A stretch of DNA of 49,473 nt from a virus (IMGVR_UViG_3300045999_002383:1-49473); one strand, 5' to 3'; positions 1-48,106 are shown, counted from the first letter of the stretch. Program-made: numbers and translations. Notes: generated by a model from the letters alone, not told the origin.

Positions 1-106
1 CGGGCAAGAACCCCCCGAGTAGGCTTACTTGCTTAGTCTCAACGTTCTCTGGACTACTTGACTTTAGTTTCTTTGAAGTTTTGTTCTTAGGAGTTTTAGT
101 GGCCAT
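1..106 (-). CDS. Lys/Ser-rich protein, N-terminal part (cut by window edge)
   Basis: An ATG at 106-104 opens a frame that stays open to the left edge, so only the first 35 residues are visible. They begin MATKTPKNKTSKKLKSSSP and are rich in Lys, Ser and Thr. The start overlaps the TAA of the preceding gene (TAATG), which is the coupling style used throughout this genome. Function is not recognisable. The basic N-terminus resembles the small Lys-rich proteins at 36.9-38.3 kb in composition only. Confidence 0.6.
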   Translation of the reverse strand, partial: MATKTPKNKTSKKLKSSSPENVETKQVSLLGGFLP

Positions 107-468
107 TACTTCACTCTCCTCGGAGTCTTACCGCTGATGTCATACACTTCTTCTTCTGAGGACTTCTTAGGAGAAGACGCCTTTGGTTTACGAGCCGCAG
201 GCTTTGGCTCAGTCGTAGGTGAACCCAAGTTTGGGACAACTAGCTTGTGAGGAATTGGGTCGCCTGCAACAGCTCCCTCACGAGTTGTAGGGACTAACCT
301 GACCTCATGCTTTGGGAGGGTCGCGTCCAGCTGAGCAGTGTGCTCAAGAGCCATTTGCCCTTGGTTAGGAAGATACGTGGTAAGTGTTCGAAAATCTCCC
401 TTACCTTTTCTGGCTTGAATGCCAAAGTACAGCTTTAGCTGTTTTGAGTTCTCAATACCGCCGGGCAT
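106..468 (-). CDS. hypothetical protein, basic C-terminus
   Basis: This 120-residue protein is not recognised. The first 70 residues look folded and mixed in composition, with a segment LKLYFGIQARKGKGDFRTLT. The last 40 residues are a Pro/Lys/Ser-rich, probably disordered basic tail (KPAARKPKASSPKKSS). The start ATG overlaps the TAA of the 561-residue gene upstream, and its own stop overlaps the next start, so it sits in a coupled chain of three genes. The neighbourhood offers no functional clue beyond a phage late or accessory region. Confidence 0.65.
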   Translation of the reverse strand: MPGGIENSKQLKLYFGIQARKGKGDFRTLTTYLPNQGQMALEHTAQLDATLPKHEVRLVPTTREGAVAGDPIPHKLVVPNLGSPTTEPKPAARKPKASSPKKSSEEEVYDISGKTPRRVK

Positions 469-2153
469 TACGTAATCACATCCTTACCGTGAGTGTCTTT
501 GGCCCACTGAGCCAACTCATTAAGTCCCTGCTTGCCTAGTATTCGCTGGGTGTCATCAGGGATTGCTAGTCCATCCATGATGTGTTTTACAGCAATCTTG
601 GTGTGAGTCTGAAGTGTTGGTGGGTGAGTAGTACTAGGCTTATCCGGAATAGGTCTACGTCGTTGAGCTGCTGCCGTAGGAGCCTGAGGCGCTGTTGGTT
701 TGCGAACGTCAATCAAGGTCTCTCCGGGTTTGCCTACAGGTCGACCGTCTTCATACCTTTGGGTAAACGCAAGCTCTTTACCAACATCTCTACCTAGGTC
801 TGACAATGGCGCTCTGTCAGACCTATTTGCTGAAATAGCGTCTTGCAGCTTTCGGTAGTTATCGTGAAGAGTTCCAAAATGCTTTTTGGCTTTTGCCAAA
901 CCATCCTTGTTAAGAGGATAAGTGTGAATCATGCCCTTGTAATTAAACCTCAATGGCTCAGGGTTAGGGTTGCGTACACCCGAACTTGCACTAGGGCGGT
1001 CTCTAACTTGCTGCAAAATGTCTTCAACAGTAGATTTGTGCAGCCCATTGGCAAGGTCTGCAGGAAGAGGGTGATTTGCTGCAGCAAAAACTCCGCGGGA
1101 AATTGGTGCGGCTAGGTGCTTAGTGACTGCCCTCAGGTGACCTGCGGCTGCGCCTAATAGTCTGGATGCGTCATCATCTCGGCTACTTGCCAGAGCTTTA
1201 CCCGCCATGTCTAGGTGGCGCTTAGCTTCGGCAACGCTGTTCATGACCTTTAAGTGTCTGGTTCCAAATGAGTTTAGGTCATCTGAACGTTGGTCAGCTT
1301 TGTTCAGGCCGTCTAGCAAAAGCTCTCTGCGCTCGCTTCCCTCAGCAACCTTAGGTGTACCATCGGGCTTGCGCTCATTCAAGCTGCGGGCGATGTTTGC
1401 GGCTTGCCCAGCAGTGTCCTGTGCCATTTGAGCAGCAACTTGACGAACGTGTCCGCCCAAGTGCACCAGTGGGGCTAGTGTGGAGTGAATGTGCAGCAAG
1501 TCAGCGTGGTGCTCCGACAGGTTTCCGCGGGTTCCCAGCATGTCTGCGTCAACTACAGCGTAATCATCGCCTAGGCCGTTTAGTTGAGAGGACTTTGGGG
1601 ACTCTTGACGGTATTGCTGGGCCTCTATTTGCTGAGAGACACCGTGTGCTTTTCCGTGTTCCTTTTCAACAGCGTCGTGTGCGTCCCAGTTTGCCTGAGA
1701 ATCGCTAGCAACTTTGTTTTCTTGCCGTTGTTGAGCGGTTAAAGGTACGGCGTTACCTTCGTAGTCAGTTTCTCTGTGAGGTATTTCAGGTCTGGCACCG
1801 CGCACACTAGTGGGGATGTAAGATGCGCCCTTTTGCTTAGGAATAACCTTGGTTTTACCAAATTGCTGAACGTTTGATGCGGCTTCTGTTAAGGGCTTAG
1901 GCTCTGTGTAACCACTGACCCCTACCCAACTTGAGTGCCACTTGTTTTTTGCTAGAACTCCACCAGTAACTGGGTGGACAGCAACTCCGCCTACGTACTT
2001 AGGCTTCGGGTTATCACGCTGCTCCGGAGTAACTGAGCGGGCAGGTGCACCTGCTGGAATGTCTTTCCATTCATTATTTTCAGGTGTGGCTGACTTCTGT
2101 GGTGCGGAAGTGGTTCCTGCACCAAGTTTCATGTCAGCTAAACTTCTACCCAT
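468..2153 (-). CDS. large hypothetical protein (561 aa), disordered ends and helical middle
   Basis: An AAGGA Shine-Dalgarno sequence lies about 7 nt before ATG 2153. Residues 1-180 are rich in Pro, Gln, Lys and Asn with little predicted order (for example GGVAVHPVTGGVLAKNKWHS). Residues 200-350 are Ala/His/Leu-rich and probably helical, with several His residues. The C-terminus from about 490 is again Pro/Thr/Gln-rich, then ends in a short helical segment. No catalytic motif is seen. The low-complexity ends and large size would fit a virion-associated or internal protein, but that is inference. Family unknown. Confidence 0.7.
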   Translation of the reverse strand: MGRSLADMKLGAGTTSAPQKSATPENNEWKDIPAGAPARSVTPEQRDNPKPKYVGGVAVHPVTGGVLAKNKWHSSWVGVSGYTEPKPLTEAASNVQQFGKTKVIPKQKGASYIPTSVRGARPEIPHRETDYEGNAVPLTAQQRQENKVASDSQANWDAHDAVEKEHGKAHGVSQQIEAQQYRQESPKSSQLNGLGDDYAVVDADMLGTRGNLSEHHADLLHIHSTLAPLVHLGGHVRQVAAQMAQDTAGQAANIARSLNERKPDGTPKVAEGSERRELLLDGLNKADQRSDDLNSFGTRHLKVMNSVAEAKRHLDMAGKALASSRDDDASRLLGAAAGHLRAVTKHLAAPISRGVFAAANHPLPADLANGLHKSTVEDILQQVRDRPSASSGVRNPNPEPLRFNYKGMIHTYPLNKDGLAKAKKHFGTLHDNYRKLQDAISANRSDRAPLSDLGRDVGKELAFTQRYEDGRPVGKPGETLIDVRKPTAPQAPTAAAQRRRPIPDKPSTTHPPTLQTHTKIAVKHIMDGLAIPDDTQRILGKQGLNELAQWAKDTHGKDVIT

Positions 2154-3846: not shown

Positions 3847-4143
3847 TTAGCTAGCTGTAATGGTAAAAATGATTGCAGAAATCTCACCATCACGGGATTC
3901 AATAGTGGTAAAGCCCGGCTTGCAGGTGAGGTCTAGCCCTCTAGGAGCAGCGTATCCTCGTGCAATTGCAATGGATTTAACTGCTTGATTCACAGCTCCC
4001 GCGCCTACTGCACGTAGTTTTACTGAACGGGTGTCGTAAACAGCGTGTGCAATAGCAGATGCTACGGCCTGTGGATTGGACCCAGCGCTTACTCGAAGGA
4101 ACTCTTCTTCAGGGGCTGGAGTGAGGTTTTCTTTGTCTGTCAT
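3847..4143 (-). CDS. spoVS: SpoVS-family (stage V sporulation protein S-like) protein
   Basis: Residues about 15-96 match the pattern of the small Alba-like SpoVS family: an opening LRVSAGSNPQAVASAIAHAV, then the diagnostic block VKLRAVGAGAVNQAVKSIAI, then ARGYAAPRGLDLTCKPGF and a final Ile-rich strand. At 98 residues it is near the usual 86-90, with a short acidic N-terminal extension (MTDKENLTPAPEEE). In Bacillus the family affects septation and spore coat assembly. Relatives also occur widely outside spore formers, and a nucleic-acid-binding role has been suggested from the fold. Here it lies directly downstream of recombination nucleases, so a nucleoprotein role is plausible but inferred. 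It does not imply a sporulating host. Confidence 0.88.
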   Translation of the reverse strand: MTDKENLTPAPEEEFLRVSAGSNPQAVASAIAHAVYDTRSVKLRAVGAGAVNQAVKSIAIARGYAAPRGLDLTCKPGFTTIESRDGEISAIIFTITAS

Positions 4144-39147: not shown

Positions 39148-39312
39148 TTACCACTTTCTTAGAGGGCAGGTTGCGTCTTCGAGTTTTACTTTTGCGTTCA
39201 TAGTGCAAAAGCACTCCGCACATTGGCGGGTAGGGGCAAAAAAGCGTGGGCATTCTTTGCAGATTTCATACCGTTGTACTGGGTCTTTAATAGTTAAAGG
39301 AAGTTGTTCCAT
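39148..39312 (-). CDS. 54-residue Cys-cluster protein related to GlcNAc-transferase tail
   Basis: ATG 39312 overlaps the fibre gene TAA (TAATG). The product contains ICKECPRFFAPTRQCAECFC then TMNAKVKLEDATCPLRKW. The pattern C-x2-C...QC-x2-C-x-C-x-M...K...A-x-CP-x-x-KW is the same as that at the C-terminus of the 430-residue glycosyltransferase (42279-43571), which has CYNCEFF, QQCKKCGCHM and ECPVGKW. It probably binds zinc. The free copy lies right beside a fibre gene. It is too short for the usual length cut-off but clearly real by this similarity. Confidence 0.75.
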   Translation of the reverse strand: MEQLPLTIKDPVQRYEICKECPRFFAPTRQCAECFCTMNAKVKLEDATCPLRKW

Positions 39313-40457
39313 TAGCGTGCTCCAAAGTTATCTACGATGTTTGTTTGATTTGCACTGGCAGAGCCTGAGGTTGCTGCGATTGTCTTAATTATACCCAAGT
39401 TGCCTGTAATAGTCGGGGAAGTTGCAGTGTAGTTAAGTTCTGTAGCAGGACCAGTCTGACCCTCTACACTGTACGCTTTAACGTTTACTACGTTGTCAGT
39501 AGTAGTTACTTTCAGGCTCTTTGTAGGAGCAGAAGTGGTTACGGTTTGAACGGTAGAGATGGTCCCACTTACTGACTTAATAAGACGAACGCTGTAGCTC
39601 GTTGTAGTGGTGGCAGTGGCCTCGTAAGAGCTAGTGACAAAACAAGTACTGCCTTCTAGAGTTCCACCGTTTGGGCAGTAGTAATAGCTAGAGTACGAGT
39701 AGCACCTATTACCTTCTAGGGTACATCCTCCGGGACAAGTGGTAGTTGTCGAGGAACAGGAGGTGGTACTGTTAGTCGGAGTGCTAGTGCAGTAGATATA
39801 GCTGCCCCACTCTTGGCAGGTTCCGCTAATACAGGCACCACCAAGCTGAGTGCACTGCGAGCCACAGGCAATACCAATTGGCTCGTAGCCATACCTTATC
39901 TCTTCAGCATAGTACTGAGTTGTGGTAGTTGGATACTCACAGAGTTCCTGAGTGTACCCAATTGACGCAGGGTACCCATTAAGGGTGTTACAAGTACTGC
40001 CACTTAGAGTTCCTCCATTAGGGCAGGAGTAAGACGTAGAAGTAGTCTGGTAGGTAATGGCTGCCCACCAGTTATTTTGGTCAGTTACCCAGAACGCCGC
40101 GCCAACACCAGCACCGCTTGGGATGTCTACCGTTATGTCGTAGTTTGGAACAGGTTTAATAAGAGGAGTGGTAGCCAAAGCGCCGCTTGAGGGGGCTGTA
40201 TCGCTACTCGCTTGAGAAGACGCGATGCCCCACGAACCCTTGAGAGTTGTCCACTGAGCGATACCGTTACTGGCTGTGCTCAGAGTAGAGCTATTAAGTC
40301 TATTGAAATCGTCAGAGATGTCGGCAGAGTGCCATACTCGCCAAGCGCCTGCTACCTTGATGTAGCCTGCAGCAACTTGTCTCCAAGAGCCAGAGACCTT
40401 GACGTACGGAGAAGCCACGGTCCTCTGAGAACCGCTAACTTTAATAGAACCGGGCAA
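39312..40457 (-). CDS. virion fibre-type protein: beta sandwich with 14-Cys repeat insert
   Basis: The 381-residue protein has three G/W repeats at its N-terminus (IKVSGSQRTV, YVKVSGSWRQ, YIKVAGAWRV). A beta sandwich (about 45-138 and 286-381) is split by an insert at 139-285. The insert holds 14 cysteines and three copies of CPNGGTLxGxTC-type units (CPNGGTLSGSTC, CPGGCTLEGNRC, CPNGGTLEGSTC). The flanks FNRLNSSTLSTASNGIAQW and NNWWAAITYQ align with those of the 45370-46509 protein, so they are paralogues. TTG 40457 follows GGAGG by 6 nt. Receptor-binding or decoration role inferred. Confidence 0.75.
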   Translation of the reverse strand: MPGSIKVSGSQRTVASPYVKVSGSWRQVAAGYIKVAGAWRVWHSADISDDFNRLNSSTLSTASNGIAQWTTLKGSWGIASSQASSDTAPSSGALATTPLIKPVPNYDITVDIPSGAGVGAAFWVTDQNNWWAAITYQTTSTSYSCPNGGTLSGSTCNTLNGYPASIGYTQELCEYPTTTTQYYAEEIRYGYEPIGIACGSQCTQLGGACISGTCQEWGSYIYCTSTPTNSTTSCSSTTTTCPGGCTLEGNRCYSYSSYYYCPNGGTLEGSTCFVTSSYEATATTTTSYSVRLIKSVSGTISTVQTVTTSAPTKSLKVTTTDNVVNVKAYSVEGQTGPATELNYTATSPTITGNLGIIKTIAATSGSASANQTNIVDNFGAR

Positions 40458-40514
40458 AAGAAACCTCCGTGAATACTACCTATAGTTTCTCGCAATGTGG
40501 CTATAAATACAGCC

Positions 40515-41567
40515 TTAACGACCTGCTTGGTAGAACGTTAGGTTGTTTTGCAGTCGCTGATTGCTAGGCTCAAGTTGAGCTGCTTGTAGCCCGTACTCTA
40601 GCGCTTTCTCTACGTCCTCTTCCCAGTAACTAGCGATAGCTGCTAGGTCATACGGCAGGGACCCCCAAGCAAACTCTTCACAGAGATAGTCCAGTGGCTT
40701 CTCTTTTATAGCCAAGGCTTTCTCGGCAAAGTGTAGACAAGATGCCCAAGACTCTGTTTCGTATAAGTGCTGAGCCAACTCGACTAGTGCTTCTCTTCGG
40801 TTAGGCGACTCGTTGTGTGCTTTAATAAGCCAGTCTGCTCGGCTATCTGGCTCTATCTTCGCTAGATACCTCATCGAAGCGGCACGTTCTGGGGCCCACG
40901 TAGCTCTAGGCAAGGAAAGATGCCGCTTAAACTCCTCAGCAGCTTCGTAATACTGATTGTAGAAGAACAGCTCTCTAGCGTAGTAAAAAGCGTTTCGGTC
41001 ATCTGAAGGGTCTTCTTCTACAGACAACTTAAGTAGAGGCAGGTATTGGCTTCGTGGTTTTGTATTGTCTGGATAGTGGTGTATCTCTAAATCTACCCAG
41101 TCCTGAACCTCTGGGATTCCATACACGTTAAGGACCTCGTGAACAGGGTGCTTCCAGCGGTAGTTCTTTCTAGTGTGAATCTTATCTCCGCCATACTGAA
41201 GTCCCGGAGTGCCGTCTTGCTTCCATGACCACGTGTACGTGTATCTAGGTCTCGTAACTCCCTTGGTCAGAGCTGCTTCTAGGCCCGCTCTCCAATCTGG
41301 GAGTAACACTTCATCCATATCAAGGGCTATGCAGTAGTCAATGTCGGCAGGTAGCGCTGCTAGTGCAGCGTTTCTTGCGTCCTCAAACCGCCATGGAGAA
41401 ATTGAGATAGAGACAACGTTGACCCCAAGACGCTGAGCCAATCTAGCCGTGTTGTCCGTAGACCCTGTGTCAGCAATTAGTAGATAGTCCGCATCCTTAG
41501 CAGACTCATACCACCGTTTTACAAACTGCTCTTCATTCAAAGCGATTGTGTAGACAGCTACCTTCAT
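40515..41567 (-). CDS. family 2 glycosyltransferase with TPR-like C-terminus
   Basis: The 350-residue protein begins MKVAVYTIALNEEQFVKRWY, then YLLIADTGSTDNTARLAQRL, the GT-A nucleotide-sugar fold. The DxD motif is in YCIALDMDEVLLPDW (D83, D85). Residues about 190-345 are helical repeats of TPR type (AEEFKRHLSLPRATWAPERA, ALVELAQHLYETESWASCLH). It would transfer a sugar to an unknown acceptor. ATG 41567 overlaps the methyltransferase stop (ATGA). Together with the GlcNAc-transferase-like gene and two fibre genes it suggests glycan addition to virion or DNA. Confidence 0.88.
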   Translation of the reverse strand: MKVAVYTIALNEEQFVKRWYESAKDADYLLIADTGSTDNTARLAQRLGVNVVSISISPWRFEDARNAALAALPADIDYCIALDMDEVLLPDWRAGLEAALTKGVTRPRYTYTWSWKQDGTPGLQYGGDKIHTRKNYRWKHPVHEVLNVYGIPEVQDWVDLEIHHYPDNTKPRSQYLPLLKLSVEEDPSDDRNAFYYARELFFYNQYYEAAEEFKRHLSLPRATWAPERAASMRYLAKIEPDSRADWLIKAHNESPNRREALVELAQHLYETESWASCLHFAEKALAIKEKPLDYLCEEFAWGSLPYDLAAIASYWEEDVEKALEYGLQAAQLEPSNQRLQNNLTFYQAGR

Positions 41568-42298
41568 AGGGTTAGCTCCGCTCGTCTGTTAGCCGCTTGC
41601 CCTTGAGTTTCAGAGATGTCATTTGAGATGCCCACTCTACCCAGTTGAGCCGCAGTCACCGCTACAAGTGCGGAACCGCCGAATGGGTCTAGGACCACAT
41701 GGTTAGTCTTAGAAAACATCTTTATACACCTAGATACCACTTCTTTGTTCATAACGTCTAGAACGTGAAATCCTTCTTTATCTAAAGCAGTGTCTACGGG
41801 GTCTTTAAGGTTATTAAACGGCAGTTCCCAGACAGGGTTAGAGTAGCGCTTTACTTCCATGTGGTCGTAGTACATCTCCGTGCTTTTTGCAAAGTGATGC
41901 CACATAGTTATTGACTCTGTCTGAATCCGCTCTCCTCTAAACGCGCCCTGCTCAGGGTCGGACTGCACGAATGTTCCGGCCAAGTTAAAGTCTGTTGACA
42001 AGAGGACTTCTGCAGCCAACTTCATGTCAAATCCGTTTCTAGAAGAATTAGCCATTACTAAACTTCCAGACGGCTTAAGAACTCGGTACATCTCTTTAAC
42101 AGCTTTTAGGTAAAGCTTTAACATCTTCTTTTCGTTATTACTAACGTTTATCTGCAGAGATGATTCCCCTCCATAACGCCTGACATCTGTAGAAATGTAG
42201 GGTGGATGAGTAATTATCAAATCAATAGAGTTAGAAGGGAGACCTAACTTTGTTGCATCGCCCTGAATAATTGTTAGGTTATTGGGCTGAAGACTCAT
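41564..42298 (-). CDS. DNA N6-adenine/N4-cytosine methyltransferase with HPPY motif
   Basis: The 244-residue protein has motif IV first (DLIITHPPYISTDVRR, residues 26-41) and the S-adenosylmethionine motif I near the end (VVLDPFGGSALVAVTAAQLG). This is the permuted beta-type order. The catalytic tetrapeptide is HPPY rather than D/N/S-PPY. Motifs V and VI (MYRVLKPSGSLVMANSSRNG) are typical. It would modify the phage or host DNA; the target site is unknown. It overlaps the end of the GlcNAc-transferase-like gene by 20 bases. No cognate restriction gene is seen. Confidence 0.88.
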   Translation of the reverse strand: MSLQPNNLTIIQGDATKLGLPSNSIDLIITHPPYISTDVRRYGGESSLQINVSNNEKKMLKLYLKAVKEMYRVLKPSGSLVMANSSRNGFDMKLAAEVLLSTDFNLAGTFVQSDPEQGAFRGERIQTESITMWHHFAKSTEMYYDHMEVKRYSNPVWELPFNNLKDPVDTALDKEGFHVLDVMNKEVVSRCIKMFSKTNHVVLDPFGGSALVAVTAAQLGRVGISNDISETQGQAANRRAELTL

Positions 42299-43571
42299 CA
42301 GGTACCGCGCTCCACTTTCCTACTGGACACTCTGCGTGTGGAAGAGACGTCTTCCAAGGCATGTGGCAGCCACACTTCTTACACTGCTGAGTCAAGGAGA
42401 TGAAGAACTCACAGTTGTAACAGAAGTCCATGCGAAGTTGCTTTACCTTGTCGTCAACCCTGCCAATGCGGGGGTCTAGCATGTCCCATGGTCTAGCCTT
42501 CTTTGGCTCTTGTGGCTCAGGGGATGGCTCATCAGCGTGGTCGTGCACTTCAGGGTCCTTACAGTCAGACTTAGGCGATTGTAGCGTCCAAGTACTTGGG
42601 TAGATTGTTTCTGGAGTTTGTCTGCCGTATTTAAGGCTTACGTTTGCGTACGACTCATAGTCGGCTTTAGGAACGCGTATAACGTCGTTATCCAAGAAAG
42701 CGCGATAGTTGCTCTGCATTTTTTCTTGCATCTTTACAACGTCTTCTTCAGAGAGATAGCTAGCAGCAGCCTTTCGTCGAGATGCACTCATCTGGCCTTC
42801 TGCTACGTATAGGTGCTTAACCACAGCCTCGGTGACGTTAGGAAACACCAGTGACCAGCCAGACCCCATCAAGTTAACGCTCTGCACTATCTCTTCTTCA
42901 AAGAATATGACAGAGGAATCTAGCCCCAAGTTCTCTGCAAACTTCTTGTCGCCAAAGGCAAAGTTCGCGTTAAATTTAGGGGAAGGAACAAAGCGGTCAG
43001 TAGTAGTCGACACCCTTGACAGAGGGACCGTATCCCAAGAAGGAAGTCCTGCATTGCTGACATAGGGCCTGTACAGCGGGTAGTAAAAGCCGTAGTGAGG
43101 GTTGAGGCCCTCAGGGAACTCCAGAGTCCTATTGCCGTTCTCATCTAGGAAGTAGTTGCCAGCGTAGGCAGTGAGAAGAGTGTGGCTATTATCGGTAGCC
43201 TTCTTTGCAAGGTGTAGTAGACCAATAAGAATCTCATCCCAATTTTCTAAGAACATAGAGTGAGAGTCAATCTGCAGGACGTAGTCTTCGTCTTCGTACA
43301 GGCTGTGGGACAGTTCTCTGCCCTGACCCACACCCAGCACTTCTAGGGCGTTCTTACTGGTTATCTTTACAAAACGGTGGCGTATGTTAGGGGATATAGA
43401 CTTTGCCTCTTTAGACACGTCTTTGTACCACTTAGAAGATGTGCTTTGCACCGCTAAGCCAACGTTGACTCTGCTTGGTTGAGAAGCTTTGCTGTACAAG
43501 TCTTTAAGAGTAGGGATAAGCTCTTCGTCATCTAGAGCCGCAATTGCCACGTAAATAGTAGGTAATGTCAT
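42279..43571 (-). CDS. GlcNAc-transferase-like enzyme with C-terminal Cys cluster
   Basis: The 430-residue protein has the polypeptide GlcNAc-transferase-like pattern: IYVAIAALDDEELIPTLKDL at the start, GLAVQSTSSKWYKDVSKEA, and LYEDEDYVLQIDSHSMFLEN, where DSH (102-104) replaces DxD. The middle holds FNANFAFGDKKFAENLGLDS and IFFEEEIVQSVNLMGSGWSL. Residues about 382-421 form a Cys cluster (CYNCEFF, QQCKKCGCHM, ECPVGKW) shared with the 54-residue protein at 39148-39312. It may add GlcNAc to Ser/Thr of fibre proteins. Start ATG 43571 overlaps the stop before it. Confidence 0.85.
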   Translation of the reverse strand: MTLPTIYVAIAALDDEELIPTLKDLYSKASQPSRVNVGLAVQSTSSKWYKDVSKEAKSISPNIRHRFVKITSKNALEVLGVGQGRELSHSLYEDEDYVLQIDSHSMFLENWDEILIGLLHLAKKATDNSHTLLTAYAGNYFLDENGNRTLEFPEGLNPHYGFYYPLYRPYVSNAGLPSWDTVPLSRVSTTTDRFVPSPKFNANFAFGDKKFAENLGLDSSVIFFEEEIVQSVNLMGSGWSLVFPNVTEAVVKHLYVAEGQMSASRRKAAASYLSEEDVVKMQEKMQSNYRAFLDNDVIRVPKADYESYANVSLKYGRQTPETIYPSTWTLQSPKSDCKDPEVHDHADEPSPEPQEPKKARPWDMLDPRIGRVDDKVKQLRMDFCYNCEFFISLTQQCKKCGCHMPWKTSLPHAECPVGKWSAVPDESSAQ

Positions 43572-44236
43572 CTAAACACCTTCTTATTCCACGATACTCG
43601 CTTATACCACGCAAGCGGTGCGTTCTGGTTTTCGTATCCTCTATTAAAAGTGTATGGCTTACCAGTGTCTATAACTGTGCTATCCCATTCATCTCGCTTA
43701 AACGGGATGGCTTGAATCATGGGGGTACCAGCAGGAATTACTCCCTTAAAGTCTTCCCGTATTACAAATGGGAAGTTAATAACCATAGGGTGAGTGTCCG
43801 TATCTACAACCCCAGAGAAAGAGTAGAACGGTAAGTCTTGACGGTTTAGTGGGTGTATAAAAAGGGTGCTATAGCCCTTAGGAGTTTTGATGTGCCAGCT
43901 GTTCATCCACTTATGTGGCTGAGGGTCAAACCCCGGAAGTATAGGGACGTCTTTGGTTTGGACAGGCATGTGGTCGCTATTTACTTTAAAAGCAGCGTTG
44001 CTGATAATCTGCTTGCTCTCGTGGTCGTACATCACGTCTGCAGACAATGGAATCATGTACCCGATAGTAAACGCATCCAGTACTGGAATGCACTTTTTAA
44101 CAGTCTCTACACGGTCCTCTACGCCGTTCATTTGTCGGTACCAGTCAGGAACTAGCCTCGAAGCAGGGGCCGGACGCAACAAGTCCAAGTGTGGCAACTC
44201 GGAGTGGAAGGTTATGTTTTTACCTGTTATCTTCAT
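43568..44236 (-). CDS. unknown phage protein, paralogue A (222 aa)
   Basis: The protein aligns with the 232-residue product at 44642-45340 over its length. Both contain PxWYxx, a KKCxPxxD motif (ETVKKCIPVLDAFTIGYMIP), KTPKGYSTLFIHPLNRQDLP, and GVIPAGTPMIQAIPFKRDEW. The C-terminus ends WYKRVSWNKKVFR against YKRIFWKRKDYR. No enzyme motif is known to me. HPLNRxDLPF and the GVIPxGTPxxQxIPxKR blocks look like conserved core strands of an unrecognised fold. It sits in the gene group with glycosyltransferases, so a role in sugar or fibre biology is possible. Confidence 0.7.
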   Translation of the reverse strand: MKITGKNITFHSELPHLDLLRPAPASRLVPDWYRQMNGVEDRVETVKKCIPVLDAFTIGYMIPLSADVMYDHESKQIISNAAFKVNSDHMPVQTKDVPILPGFDPQPHKWMNSWHIKTPKGYSTLFIHPLNRQDLPFYSFSGVVDTDTHPMVINFPFVIREDFKGVIPAGTPMIQAIPFKRDEWDSTVIDTGKPYTFNRGYENQNAPLAWYKRVSWNKKVFR

Positions 44237-44645
44237 CTTGTTTTCCTAGGTCAAACTTCTTGGGAGAGATATTTGGGGTTGGAAGTACTAACTTTCCATC
44301 CTTGTATTTTGTTCCAATCTGAGGGTGCTCTCCCTTAGCGGGGTTGAACTCCACAAAAGTAGGCTGGTGCATCAAGATGGACGCCATTCTAGGCTGGACC
44401 CTCATTACATCCACAACCTCATCGTCAACCACAATCGCTAGAAAGGTGATGTCTTTCCAAAGGTTTGTGTTGGGCATCATGCCCTGAGGATTTGTGGCAG
44501 GCTTTTTAACTCTAGAAATCTTGTCTAGCCAGATAGAGAAGGCTCTTTTTAGCAGGTCCCACGTGCTTAGCTTTTGGACTTTATTAGGAGAGACCTTTAC
44601 AACTACTCTTTTTTCAGGTCTATCCTTTTTAATCTTAGGCTTCAT
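44220..44645 (-). CDS. hypothetical protein between paralogues, 141 aa
   Basis: The 141-residue protein starts MKPKIKKDRPEKRVVVKVSP, a very basic N-terminus, followed by a hydrophobic/helical region (WDLLKRAFSIWLDKISRVKK) and the beta segment FLAIVVDDEVVDVMRVQPRM. The remainder resembles a small domain with PTFVEFNPAKGEHPQIGT. It overlaps both neighbours by a few bases, which suggests coupled production with the two paralogues. Function unknown. Confidence 0.62.
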   Translation of the reverse strand: MKPKIKKDRPEKRVVVKVSPNKVQKLSTWDLLKRAFSIWLDKISRVKKPATNPQGMMPNTNLWKDITFLAIVVDDEVVDVMRVQPRMASILMHQPTFVEFNPAKGEHPQIGTKYKDGKLVLPTPNISPKKFDLGKQDEDNR

Positions 44646-45340
44646 CGATAGTCCTTTCGCTTCCAGAAGATACGCTTGTATAAAGTTTCTGGCTCTCTAA
44701 CTATTGTCCCTTGAATCATGTCAACGTCAGCCATGCCTGTACTGTCATCAACCATCAGCCAAGAAGACCTCTTAATAGGAATAATCTGAGCAAAGGGAGT
44801 GCCCTCTGGAATCACTCCCTCGAAGCCCTCCCTAAGGAAGAAGGGAATGTTACCCGACGCGTTAAACTGGTCGCTGTCTACAATTCCAGCAGAGATTGTA
44901 AAAGGCAAGTCGTATCTGTTTAAAGGATGCACTACTAAAGTAGACCAGCCACGAGGGGTCTTCCACCCCCAGAAACCAGAGAATACCATGTGGTTTGGGT
45001 AGTGCCCAGCAGGGCGGGGCATAGTTGCTCCTAGGTTAGCGGGGCGTTCATCAACAAACTTGCTAAGCTCCGGCGGGCCGTTCCATGTGACTCTAGGGTT
45101 GCCCTCCTCGTCTTTAGTTACATAAAGTTCGACAGGGGTGGTTAGCACGTAGCCTGACACCATCGTGTCCATAAAGGGCATGCACTTTTTTAGGCCAGCG
45201 TGCTCTTCTTGTTTAGGGTCATCCTTATGGATGTAAGTGCTCTCAGCTTTTTTATACCACTCTGGTAGGACATTTTTAGTAGGAGTAGGAACTCCCCAAC
45301 TATTGAGGTTGGCTTTAGCTGCAAATCGTATAAGTTTCAT
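44642..45340 (-). CDS. unknown phage protein, paralogue B (232 aa)
   Basis: This is the second member of the pair with 43568-44236. Shared blocks in order: PEWYKK near 25, LKKCMPFMDTMVSGYVLTTP, KTPRGWSTLVVHPLNRYDLP, ISAGIVDSDQFNASGNIPFF, LREGFEGVIPEGTPFAQIIP, and IKRSSW. The pair looks like an ancient duplication, since overall identity is modest. No signal peptide or transmembrane segment. AAAGG lies about 6 nt before ATG 45340. Function unknown. Confidence 0.7.
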   Translation of the reverse strand: MKLIRFAAKANLNSWGVPTPTKNVLPEWYKKAESTYIHKDDPKQEEHAGLKKCMPFMDTMVSGYVLTTPVELYVTKDEEGNPRVTWNGPPELSKFVDERPANLGATMPRPAGHYPNHMVFSGFWGWKTPRGWSTLVVHPLNRYDLPFTISAGIVDSDQFNASGNIPFFLREGFEGVIPEGTPFAQIIPIKRSSWLMVDDSTGMADVDMIQGTIVREPETLYKRIFWKRKDYR

Positions 45341-45369
45341 GTGGGCCTTTTAAATACCGATAATTTAGT

Positions 45370-46509
45370 CTAGTTCTTTTCTATTGAAATTTCTCCGACA
45401 GAGTAGCTTTGTGAGTAACTGCTAGGAACAACTGTTATTCCATACGAAGGAGAGATAGCCGCTCCAGTAGCCGTGTAGACAATGTCGCTACCAATTTGAG
45501 TGACCAAAGATGGGTCTGAGTACACCTTAGTCGTAATCTGGGTTCCAGAAGTAAGTACCTTCATTGACTGAGGAGCAGTCTCTCCGATTAACTGATTAAC
45601 AACAGTAGTAACTACGTTACTTACAGACCTAAAAACACGTAGGTAGCTTGGATAGCACGTGCCACAGTTGTAGAACGGACCACTGTAACCAGTGGCATTT
45701 CCTACACCGTTAGTGTTCGCATTGGCCAGAGCATTAGCATTTGCATTAGCGTAGTTAGGGGTGGCGGCGTTTTCCTGAACGCAGGCATTACACCCTTGGT
45801 AGTTTTGACATGCGTAGTAGCTGTTGGCGCAGTTCACTCCGTTGTAGCACGAACAGTAGTTGCTGGCACAGTTTACGCCGTTATAGCAGGAGCAGTAGTT
45901 ACCTTGGCAGTTACCACCAGTTTTGTTCTTGGTGTTATACGCGTTATATCCGTAGCAAGTGTAGCCACAGCAGTTTGAGGTGTTGTAAGAACCGCAAGTG
46001 TATCCACAGCAGTTTGAGGTGTTGTACGCGTTACATACGTAATAAGACGCGCAACAAGTTGGGCCATTAGCCCACGCAATACAGCTGCCAGCGGTGTACC
46101 CTGAAATGTAAGAATATGAGTAGGTGTAGTTATAGGCATACACATACGTATAGTTGTACGAGTAAGTGTAGCTGTTGTAAAACTCAGTACAGTTACAGTC
46201 TTCAGATTGGCGGTACACACCGACTGCCCACCAGTTTCCTGCATCAGTCACCCAGAGGGCAGCTCCGCCACCAGCCCCAATGTCAGAAAGTGAAATAGCC
46301 ACGTTCTGGTTGGGCATGGTTACCGCAGCAATAGGGTAGTCGGTGCTACCGCCTACTGCTTTGTTGCTAGAGATAGAGAAGGCCCCTCGAACAATGTTCC
46401 ATAGAGAGCCGTCGGATGCTACGCCTAGAGAAGCGGCATCAGTTCTGTTAAAGGTGTCTACAAATCGTCTACGAATGGAGCTAATTGCTCCAGATATAAG
46501 TTTTCTCAT
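45370..46509 (-). CDS. virion fibre-type protein: beta sandwich with 24-Cys Tyr/Asn-rich insert
   Basis: This 379-residue paralogue of the 39312-40457 protein begins with a beta sandwich (FNRTDAASLGVASDGSLWNI, then GGAALWVTDAGNWWAVGVYR). At residue 101 it is interrupted by about 185 residues. The insert begins with alternating Tyr (YTYSYNYTYVYAYNYTYSYS), then carries 24 cysteines in total. It includes two 13-residue repeat pairs (YNTSNCCGYTCGS at 162-174 and again at 175; NYCSCYNGVNCAS at 204 and again at 217), and an Asn/Ala run. The second sandwich half resumes at YLRVFRSVSNVVTTVVNQLI. The insert site is the same as in the paralogue. Confidence 0.78.
   Translation of the reverse strand: MRKLISGAISSIRRRFVDTFNRTDAASLGVASDGSLWNIVRGAFSISSNKAVGGSTDYPIAAVTMPNQNVAISLSDIGAGGGAALWVTDAGNWWAVGVYRQSEDCNCTEFYNSYTYSYNYTYVYAYNYTYSYSYISGYTAGSCIAWANGPTCCASYYVCNAYNTSNCCGYTCGSYNTSNCCGYTCYGYNAYNTKNKTGGNCQGNYCSCYNGVNCASNYCSCYNGVNCANSYYACQNYQGCNACVQENAATPNYANANANALANANTNGVGNATGYSGPFYNCGTCYPSYLRVFRSVSNVVTTVVNQLIGETAPQSMKVLTSGTQITTKVYSDPSLVTQIGSDIVYTATGAAISPSYGITVVPSSYSQSYSVGEISIEKN
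45655..46200 (-). repeat. in-frame repeats in fibre gene: 39-bp units and Tyr-X/Asn-Ala dipeptide tracts
   Basis: The insert coding DNA contains a 23-bp exact repeat, 45965-45987 and 46004-46026, spaced 39 bases. A second 39-base period lies near 45818-45900 for the NYCSCYNGVNCAS units. An Asn-Ala alternating tract is encoded at about 45.69-45.76 kb and a Tyr-alternating tract near 46.10-46.19 kb. All are in codon phase, so the protein repeats arise from codon-level duplication. This gives a means of variation in the exposed protein. Confidence 0.72.
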
Positions 46510-48071
46510 TAAGTGGTCAAATCTCCAGATAGTAGCCAGCTGTTTGATGCCCGCTTAATTAGAGACGCAACTGAGTACTGTGCTCTAGTCTTAGTCCCCG
46601 TAGCACCTACCAGCGTAATGCCAGAGTTGCTCACGGTAACTTGCCCTGTGCCTGTTTGCACTAGCATGAGGGTGGTTCCCACGGGGAAGTTAACCGACGC
46701 ATCTTGGGGAATGGTAACTGTAATCGCAGACGAACTAGACAGCTCCACCAGCTTGTCTTTATCAGTAAGCACAAGCGTGTAGTTACCAGTCTGTTGGTTA
46801 ATTCCGACAACTGCGGGGGCGTCAGCACCCGCTGGTCCCGTAGGGCCTGTAGCACCGTCTGCACCTGCTGGTCCCGTAGGGCCTGTAGCACCGTCAGCTC
46901 CACCCGCATTTGATACAGAAATGGTGCCGTACATCATAGAGTGGTTTTGGCACTGGTAGTACAAAGTGTTAGGAGCGTTAAACGGAACTTCAAATATTAC
47001 AGTTCCAGAATCAGTTCCTGCACCAGTTACGCCTGTTGTGTAGACGTTTCCAGCGTTGTACCCGCCTCCAGTGGTTTGAATCCAGAATGGGTGACCTGCA
47101 GCATTTACATCGAACACGTACCTCATGCCGCGAACAAGGTTTAGCGTAGGGTTAGTGGCACCATTAATTGAGTAGGTCATAGAGCCGCCATCAGTGACGG
47201 CAAAGGTTATTCCTCCGCTAGCTCCTGTAGGGCCAGTTGGTCCCGTAGGCCCTGTCGGTCCTTGCGCTCCAGTAGGACCAGTAGGACCAACGGTAGCAGA
47301 AGTAAACTCTGTGTAATTGATAGCGTCAGTACCGACCACAAAAGTAGCAGGGTCAGAAACAAACCCTACAAAACCCTTGTTTACGTTAGTGTCTCCGTCT
47401 TTAATAAAAACGTACATACCCGGGATTTCACTGGCTTCATCACAAAGCCCACAACGAGTCAAGACCCATGGAGTTCCTGAGTCCCCTTGAGTCGTTAGGT
47501 TGTATCTGCCGTTGTGCGCTGCATTAGTCTGGTTCTTTACAAGAACACCGCGAAAACCATTACCGGTAGTAATAGTGGTAACGCCGTCAATTGCAGGGAA
47601 CGCACCGTTTGAAGTAGCGGTAAGAGTAGCTCCCACACCTAGAGTGCCGTTGCTATACGTTGCAGAAAGGTTTTCAGTAGTAGCCGCCATTACAGATGGC
47701 TTAGCGTAGATACCCTGTGCAATATCGTCTACGTAAGAGACCGTTGCAACAACAGCGGTGTCAATTTCTACAATTCCGCCAGCGTACTCGATTCCATTAC
47801 CTGCAGTAAAAGATGGGAGGGGACCAGTAGGTCCAGTTGGACCAGTGCTTCCCGTAAGTCCAGTAGAGCCTGTAGGACCTTGAGGGCCAGTGTCCCCCAC
47901 AGGTCCAGTAGGGCCAGTGTCACCAGTAAGCCCTTGAGGGCCAGTTGGTCCTTGAGGCCCAACGCTTGATGAGGCAATCTTCCAAGTAGAGCCAGTCCAC
48001 ACCCAACTTCTCGAGCCAGATGTAAATACGTCATCGACGTCAGGTGCGTCAGGAAAGTTAATCGCGGGCAT
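46509..48071 (-). CDS. collagen-like tail fibre with cupredoxin-like domain
   Basis: From ATG 48071 (GGAG 5-7 nt upstream) the 520-residue protein has an N-terminal head. Collagen-like Gly-X-Y runs follow at about 38-84 ([16 protein letters not shown]), 263-283 and 389-416. A beta module is near 125-260 ([20 protein letters not shown]). A cupredoxin-like domain at about 288-386 has H327 in [11 protein letters not shown] and C374, H377, M379/380 in [10 protein letters not shown]. The C-terminus is a small fibre tip ([18 protein letters not shown]). It likely forms trimers. A TTG at 48083 would add four residues, but ATG fits better. Confidence 0.85.
46831..46895 (-). repeat. 36-bp tandem repeat encoding collagen-like [12 protein letters not shown] units
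   Basis: Two near-identical 29-bp copies (46831-46859 and 46867-46895) with a 36-base period encode the third Gly-X-Y region of the fibre. The match is far closer than needed to encode similar collagen repeats, so recent slippage or unequal duplication is likely. Such repeats can change fibre length. Confidence 0.7.
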
Positions 48072-48106
48072 TAAAGTCTCCAATAAAGGTACTACTAGTT
48101 TGCCGT

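Follow-up and report, generated by a model that had tools for sequence, protein, structure and literature searches.

We analysed a 49,473-nt record of an uncultivated virus, IMGVR_UViG_3300045999_002383:1-49473 (the whole stretch is called the window below), for two genes encoding putative tail-fibre proteins, fibre A and fibre B, in which a cysteine-rich insert interrupts a shared scaffold. The window belongs to a phage with a contractile tail and encodes a sheath, a T4-type tube, a baseplate wedge, a baseplate spike OB domain, an M23 peptidase, a DnaB helicase, a DNA polymerase and RecA. The two fibre genes and their parts lie as follows:

39312..40457, minus strand: fibre A, 381 residues, with N-terminal KVSGSWR-type repeats, a split concanavalin-A-like (ConA-like) scaffold and a cysteine-rich insert
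40059..40319, minus strand: fibre A, N half of the scaffold up to the NWWAA strand, residues ~47-133
39591..40058, minus strand: fibre A insert, residues 134-289, 14 Cys, CPNGGTLxGxTC units, predicted beta-ribbon stalk at both ends
39315..39590, minus strand: fibre A, C half of the scaffold, residues 290-381, from VRLIKSVSGTIS
45370..46509, minus strand: fibre B, 379 residues, scaffold as in A with an unrelated Cys/Tyr-rich insert
46222..46464, minus strand: fibre B, N half of the scaffold, residues ~16-96
45643..46221, minus strand: fibre B insert, residues 97-289, 24 Cys, a Tyr-alternating stretch and two pairs of 39-nt (13-residue) Cys units
45373..45642, minus strand: fibre B, C half of the scaffold, residues 290-379, from LRVFRSVS

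One scaffold with two unrelated inserts

The first-pass annotation had described A and B as two paralogues that share a split beta sandwich, which opens at the same point to take in cysteine-rich inserts of no mutual similarity. The homology of both scaffold halves supports this description: the N halves match with a blastp expectation value (E) of 2e-13 and a z score of 18 against shuffled sequences, and the C halves reach a local alignment score of 93 against 34.7 +/- 6.2 for shuffles (none of 2000 as high). The fold models described below agree with it. The inserts, on the other hand, have no detectable similarity (score 86 versus 71.8 +/- 10.8, a value reached by 57 of 500 shuffles). The cysteines stand in one internal segment of each protein, as had been stated, with all 14 of A within residues 145-272 and all 24 of B within residues 105-285. 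The repeat make-up attributed to the inserts is also present. In A the CPNGGTLxGxTC unit occurs twice exactly and once in a degenerate form, with DNA 80% alike over 51 nt; in B the 13-residue units have three cysteines each and form two pairs, with DNA 97% alike in one pair and ~80% in the other. Close relatives of A and B keep all insert cysteines (14/14 and 24/24), with inserts 75-80% and scaffolds mostly 84-97% identical. Fibre A starts at a TTG codon with GGAGG just upstream. Apart from the N-terminal repeats of A, neither protein matches a Pfam or PHROG family.

While the homology of A and B holds, they are not just a pair but belong to a widespread family. A first search of viral contigs relied on the N half of the scaffold alone, whose alignment has no cysteine, and recovered 69 loci; nearly every complete protein among them has a Cys-rich stretch straight after the NWW strand, followed by an xR/K..K/Q.V.GTVS strand. 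With later scans using other scaffold motifs, all of them blind to cysteine, the family amounts to 102 distinct members (less than 90% identical). In 101 of these a Cys-rich insert of 66-491 residues stands at the same hairpin, and the remaining viral-contig member (L281) has a 14-residue loop without cysteine in its place. Cysteine is confined to the inserts, where it makes up 1,520 of 14,964 residues as against 6 of 17,719 in the scaffolds. Tyrosine is also enriched (12.4% versus 2.8%), and Lys, Leu and Ile are scarce. At 45% identity the inserts fall into 27 clusters, all at one insertion point, in line with the expectation of hypervariable inserts on a conserved scaffold in many relatives.

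The family is essentially unseen among cultured phages. A tblastn search of cultured phages with A and B gave no match, and named phages gave no direct match for A, B or three further members (L036, L033, L160); for a fourth (L049) the sole match, a weak one in the N-terminal part, is to Burkholderia phage SURPRISE13. In the literature, as far as open-access text goes, we found no account of Cys-rich variable inserts in phage fibres. Other phages have two or three fibres of this kind, whose inserts are dissimilar (G004, G005 and G006; L160, L161). One contig (L244) has, beside a Cys-rich paralogue, a second frame (2-727, minus strand) in which a scaffold-like domain is followed by a long Tyr/Thr repeat stretch that is free of cysteine in the part visible before the contig end.

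Cysteine parity and turnover of the inserts

All 101 inserts have an even number of cysteines, from 4 to 46, though the members are not independent of one another. The regularity was first seen in 40 of 40 members, set down as a prediction, and then found in 25 of 25 and 36 of 36 later members. The last 36 exclude the insert-less protein, and the insert boundaries of later members were set by hidden Markov models (HMMs) of both scaffold halves. Control residues behave differently: their number is even in 28 to 48 of 65 inserts (38 for Tyr, 32 for Gly, 36 for Ser, 32 for Thr). Among 152 pairs of related inserts the number of cysteines differs in 89, by an odd amount in none.

Two trivial sources of parity were ruled out. 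It is not a by-product of repeat units with even cysteine numbers: the units of B have three cysteines and other members have one-Cys units, with totals still even. Neither is it an effect of boundary choice, as the boundaries come from a scaffold regular expression or from HMMs that ignore cysteine. The count leaves out 11 fragments without a C half in the same open frame. Three of these were inspected: two are broken (L300, L268) and one is changed downstream (L249). The two broken ones are near-identical contigs (L300, 7193-7747, minus strand; L268, 1018-1617, plus strand) in which the fibre frame is interrupted at an identical position within the insert, with the other half open in another frame; this may reflect a shared mutation, an error or a frame switch.

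Since the number of insert cysteines is always even, we infer that each of them pairs with another in the same chain to form a disulfide. The evidence for such pairing is indirect but very strong.

The scaffold is the conserved part of these proteins and the insert the variable one. Members with N scaffolds 80-90% identical have inserts whose identity runs from 78% down to 28%. One such pair (L182 and L183) shares 89% of its N scaffold and bears unrelated inserts of 12 and 24 Cys, and another (L180 and L182, within the 80-89% range) likewise has unrelated inserts. Where scaffold identity is below 50%, inserts are mostly no closer than shuffled sequence. The view of the inserts as fast-changing loops on a conserved scaffold is thus borne out by unrelated inserts on near-identical scaffolds, although subfamilies with a fairly constant insert do exist (for example L051/L027/L034).

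In close pairs the nonsynonymous divergence (dN) of the insert is usually 2 to 20 times that of the scaffold, and its synonymous divergence (dS) is higher in most pairs. Positive selection on the inserts was considered and rejected, as pairwise dN/dS is below 1. Given the raised dN and dS of the inserts, a dN/dS below 1 and the 39-nt direct repeats in B, the exchange of whole inserts together with growth by repeats appears to fit better than point diversification under positive selection. A diversity-generating retroelement (DGR) was also rejected. Reverse transcriptase (PF00078) was found in none of 42 related records, many of them fragments, and not in the window, with controls responding as they should; the predicted fold is ConA-like and not a C-type lectin with a variable repeat. 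A retroelement is thus not the source of the variation, as far as the fragments show.

Scaffold fold and gene neighbourhood

AlphaFold models from family alignments give the scaffold as a confident beta sandwich, with a predicted local distance difference test score (pLDDT) of ~90-95. Both halves form one fold in these models and not two unrelated ones. A long pair of strands runs from the sandwich into the insert (129-144/281-296 in A, 92-110/279-296 in B). Foldseek searches of the PDB with the scaffold returned, at weak values (E ~0.05 and above), concanavalin-A-like lectins, the carbohydrate-binding module (CBM) of the evolved Dit of phage J-1, rotavirus VP8* and the central fibre of mycobacteriophage Douge. 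Against a viral library, six uncultured phage proteins ranked first (E < 1e-12), and after them came minor tail proteins from phages of Arthrobacter, Rhodococcus and Gordonia (4e-6 to 9e-4).

The single match in bacterial genomes comes from Paenibacillus (L129) and has the same domain without an insert, with a tight turn (NWWFVQGASGTGKYELYKK). It connects the family to annotated tail proteins: the family finds it with a profile E of 9e-5 and an HMM E of 8e-10, and its domain in turn finds minor tail proteins and tail fibres of Gordonia and Rhodococcus phages (E 3e-8 to 1e-4). Besides the Paenibacillus protein, minor tail proteins or tail fibres of two Gordonia phages (Beenie, Barco) and of Rhodococcus phage ReqiPepy6 are homologues that lack the insert and have a tight hairpin at the insertion point. 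In the alignment the insert stands in place of the tight turn of the Paenibacillus protein. By sequence comparison, homology to annotated tail proteins appears to hold, indirectly through this protein, and the modelled scaffold corresponds to a ConA-like (LamG/lectin) domain as in phage minor tail proteins and tail fibres.

Fibres A and B lie in the context of a tail and baseplate module of sheath, tube, baseplate wedge and collagen fibre. Two of their neighbours are:

46509..48083, minus strand: collagen-like tail fibre, directly upstream of fibre B
39148..39312, minus strand: small six-Cys protein of 54 residues (phrog_13558, weakly DUF6171-like), whose ATG overlaps the stop of fibre A (TAATG)

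The small protein has the motif CxxCPxF...CxxCxC...CPxxKW. Its family, phrog_13558, is present in 38 of 42 fibre-bearing records, and 29 of 49 fibre genes have a member on their own strand no more than 1.7 kb downstream, as against 1.7 expected. In one record (G006) each of two fibres has its own phrog_13558 gene after it. Relatives in cultured cyanophages and Stenotrophomonas phages are placed elsewhere, so the family is not exclusive to fibres. As a guess, the six-Cys protein is a candidate folding or assembly partner of the fibre.

Between the two fibre genes are a GT2 glycosyltransferase with tetratricopeptide repeats (40515-41567, minus strand), an N-acetylglucosamine-type glycosyltransferase whose C-terminus is fused to a phrog_13558 domain (42279-43571, minus strand) and an N6/N4 DNA methylase. 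The two glycosyltransferases might modify fibre or host glycans. Two paralogues of phrog_7084, a family of unknown function, lie close downstream of fibre B (43568-44236 and 44642-45340, minus strand), and a SpoVS-domain protein (E 2.7e-28) is encoded at 3847-4143 (minus strand).

A proposed disulfide knob for receptor recognition

We consider it fairly probable that A and B are tail-fibre tips in which a lectin-type sandwich bears a plug-in disulfide knob for receptor recognition. According to this model they would be receptor-binding proteins of a contractile-tailed phage, with a ConA-like sandwich of the minor tail protein kind as the conserved part. Where a short hairpin would otherwise stand, a beta-ribbon stalk would extend from the sandwich and carry the Cys-rich knob, which would be held by intramolecular disulfides and not by a hydrophobic core. 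Since disulfides would close the knob on itself and a single point of the scaffold serves as both entry and exit, the knob could be exchanged, lengthened by further repeat units or changed by mutation while the scaffold stays intact. A knob so free to change could serve as a plug-in surface for recognition of changing host receptors. The location in the tail fibre is suggested by homology and gene neighbourhood, and receptor binding by the homology to tail-fibre domains together with the variability. Immune evasion, which the first-pass annotation had offered as another role of the inserts, is unlikely in a virus of bacteria.

Several observations weigh against this model. The knobs are modelled at low confidence (pLDDT below 50 for the insert of B), and the picture of stalk and knob is drawn from the predicted ribbon and from parity. 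Pairwise dN/dS is below 1 in the inserts and gives no sign of positive selection. Phage proteins are made in a normally reducing cytoplasm. A search of the window and relatives for a dedicated thiol oxidase (Erv/ALR) found none, though its control stayed silent, and thioredoxin occurs in 2 of 42 records.

An unlikely though not negligible alternative is that the disulfide knobs are real and serve reinforcement or general adhesion, such as durability of the fibre in open water or sticking to particles, and are not specific for receptors. The size of the repeat-built knobs (up to 491 residues and up to 46 Cys), their low-complexity Tyr/Thr/Asn repeats and the subfamilies with a fairly constant insert would agree with such a role. 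The swapping of inserts on near-identical scaffolds, their faster change and the homology of the scaffold to lectin-type domains of tail fibres speak for receptor recognition instead.

It is considerably less probable that the knob is a domain without disulfides, organised by metal (Zn or Fe-S clusters) bound to the insert. Spacings of the CxC, CxxC and CC kind are many, a reducing cytoplasm favours thiolates, and the linked six-Cys protein resembles a zinc ribbon. However, Cys2His2 or Cys4 sites are disfavoured by cysteine counts, which in 22 of 65 inserts are even but not multiples of four, and by the scarcity of histidine (0.7%); the cysteine spacings are broad with no recurrent Cys4 signature. 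Tyr, Thr, Ser and Gly also abound in the inserts and charged residues are few, as is typical for secreted disulfide domains. A display of A and B outside the tail for a purpose other than attachment, such as superinfection exclusion or decoration of the infected cell, is about as improbable: they do sit among auxiliary genes (glycosyltransferases, methyltransferase) and outside the baseplate cluster, but fibre B directly follows the collagen-like tail fibre and the insert-less homologues are annotated as minor tail proteins or tail fibres.

The model of a lectin-type sandwich with a plug-in knob has partial counterparts in known systems. The ConA-like domains of actinophages (Gordonia Beenie gp27 and Barco gp31, Rhodococcus ReqiPepy6 gene005) appear to be the same sandwich, as judged through the Paenibacillus protein and the fold search, with a tight hairpin where the A/B family has its insert of 66-491 residues. 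The central fibre gp20 of mycobacteriophage Douge (PDB 8ZDP) has the fold predicted for the scaffold, and the domains of the Douge fibre bind host glycans (PMC13033339).

The ultralong third heavy-chain complementarity-determining regions (CDR-H3) of bovine antibodies are loops of 52-63 residues with 4-8 Cys in diverse pairings (PMC6440498). As proposed for the A/B family, which has a predicted stalk, they combine a beta-sandwich scaffold, a two-stranded ribbon stalk and a diverse disulfide knob with paired cysteines and without a hydrophobic core (PMC6440498). They differ in belonging to an unrelated fold family, in somatic diversification and in size, the inserts of phages having 66-491 residues and 4-46 Cys.

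In evolved Dit and evolved Tal proteins of siphophages, carbohydrate-binding modules are placed in loops of a conserved galectin-type tail-tip scaffold (PMC7291167). The likeness is an insert in a loop of a lectin-type scaffold; what is inserted there, however, is a folded CBM that always has one recurrent fold, not a disulfide knob, and the scaffold is Dit. Neither A nor B has a Dit match in Pfam or PHROG, and their only likeness to the J-1 Dit CBM is at the level of fold. Receptor-binding proteins diversified by DGRs (Mtd, tentaclins) also have a hypervariable site on a conserved lectin-like scaffold of a tail protein (PMC10743442). They use a C-type lectin fold, a reverse transcriptase and a template repeat, whereas the A/B family shows whole-insert replacement, repeats and changes in length.

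Tenebrio-type antifreeze proteins and other proteins with 12-13-residue Cys repeats have short Cys repeats like those of insert B, which in the A/B family occur in only some members; a sequence search of the PDB gave no match. The A/B family would be a new variety of modular tail adhesin, which works like ultralong CDR-H3 and evolved Dits and is a member of neither.

We regard with slightly more doubt than belief the broader proposal that this is a general antibody-like device of tailed phages: a lectin-type scaffold with exchangeable, repeat-grown disulfide knobs on a ribbon stalk, replacement of whole knobs without a retroelement, and a linked small Cys protein that possibly aids folding. 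If it is true, phages would have their own equivalent of the stalk-and-knob antibodies found in cattle. The proposal would also pose the puzzle of forming disulfide-rich parts inside a reducing cytoplasm. The even number of cysteines is a sequence rule that can be checked on any new member. The family would then represent natural libraries of disulfide-locked binders, with as many as 46 Cys carried by a single scaffold, in viruses hardly met in culture, and would account for the renewal of receptor recognition by some environmental phages that use no DGR.

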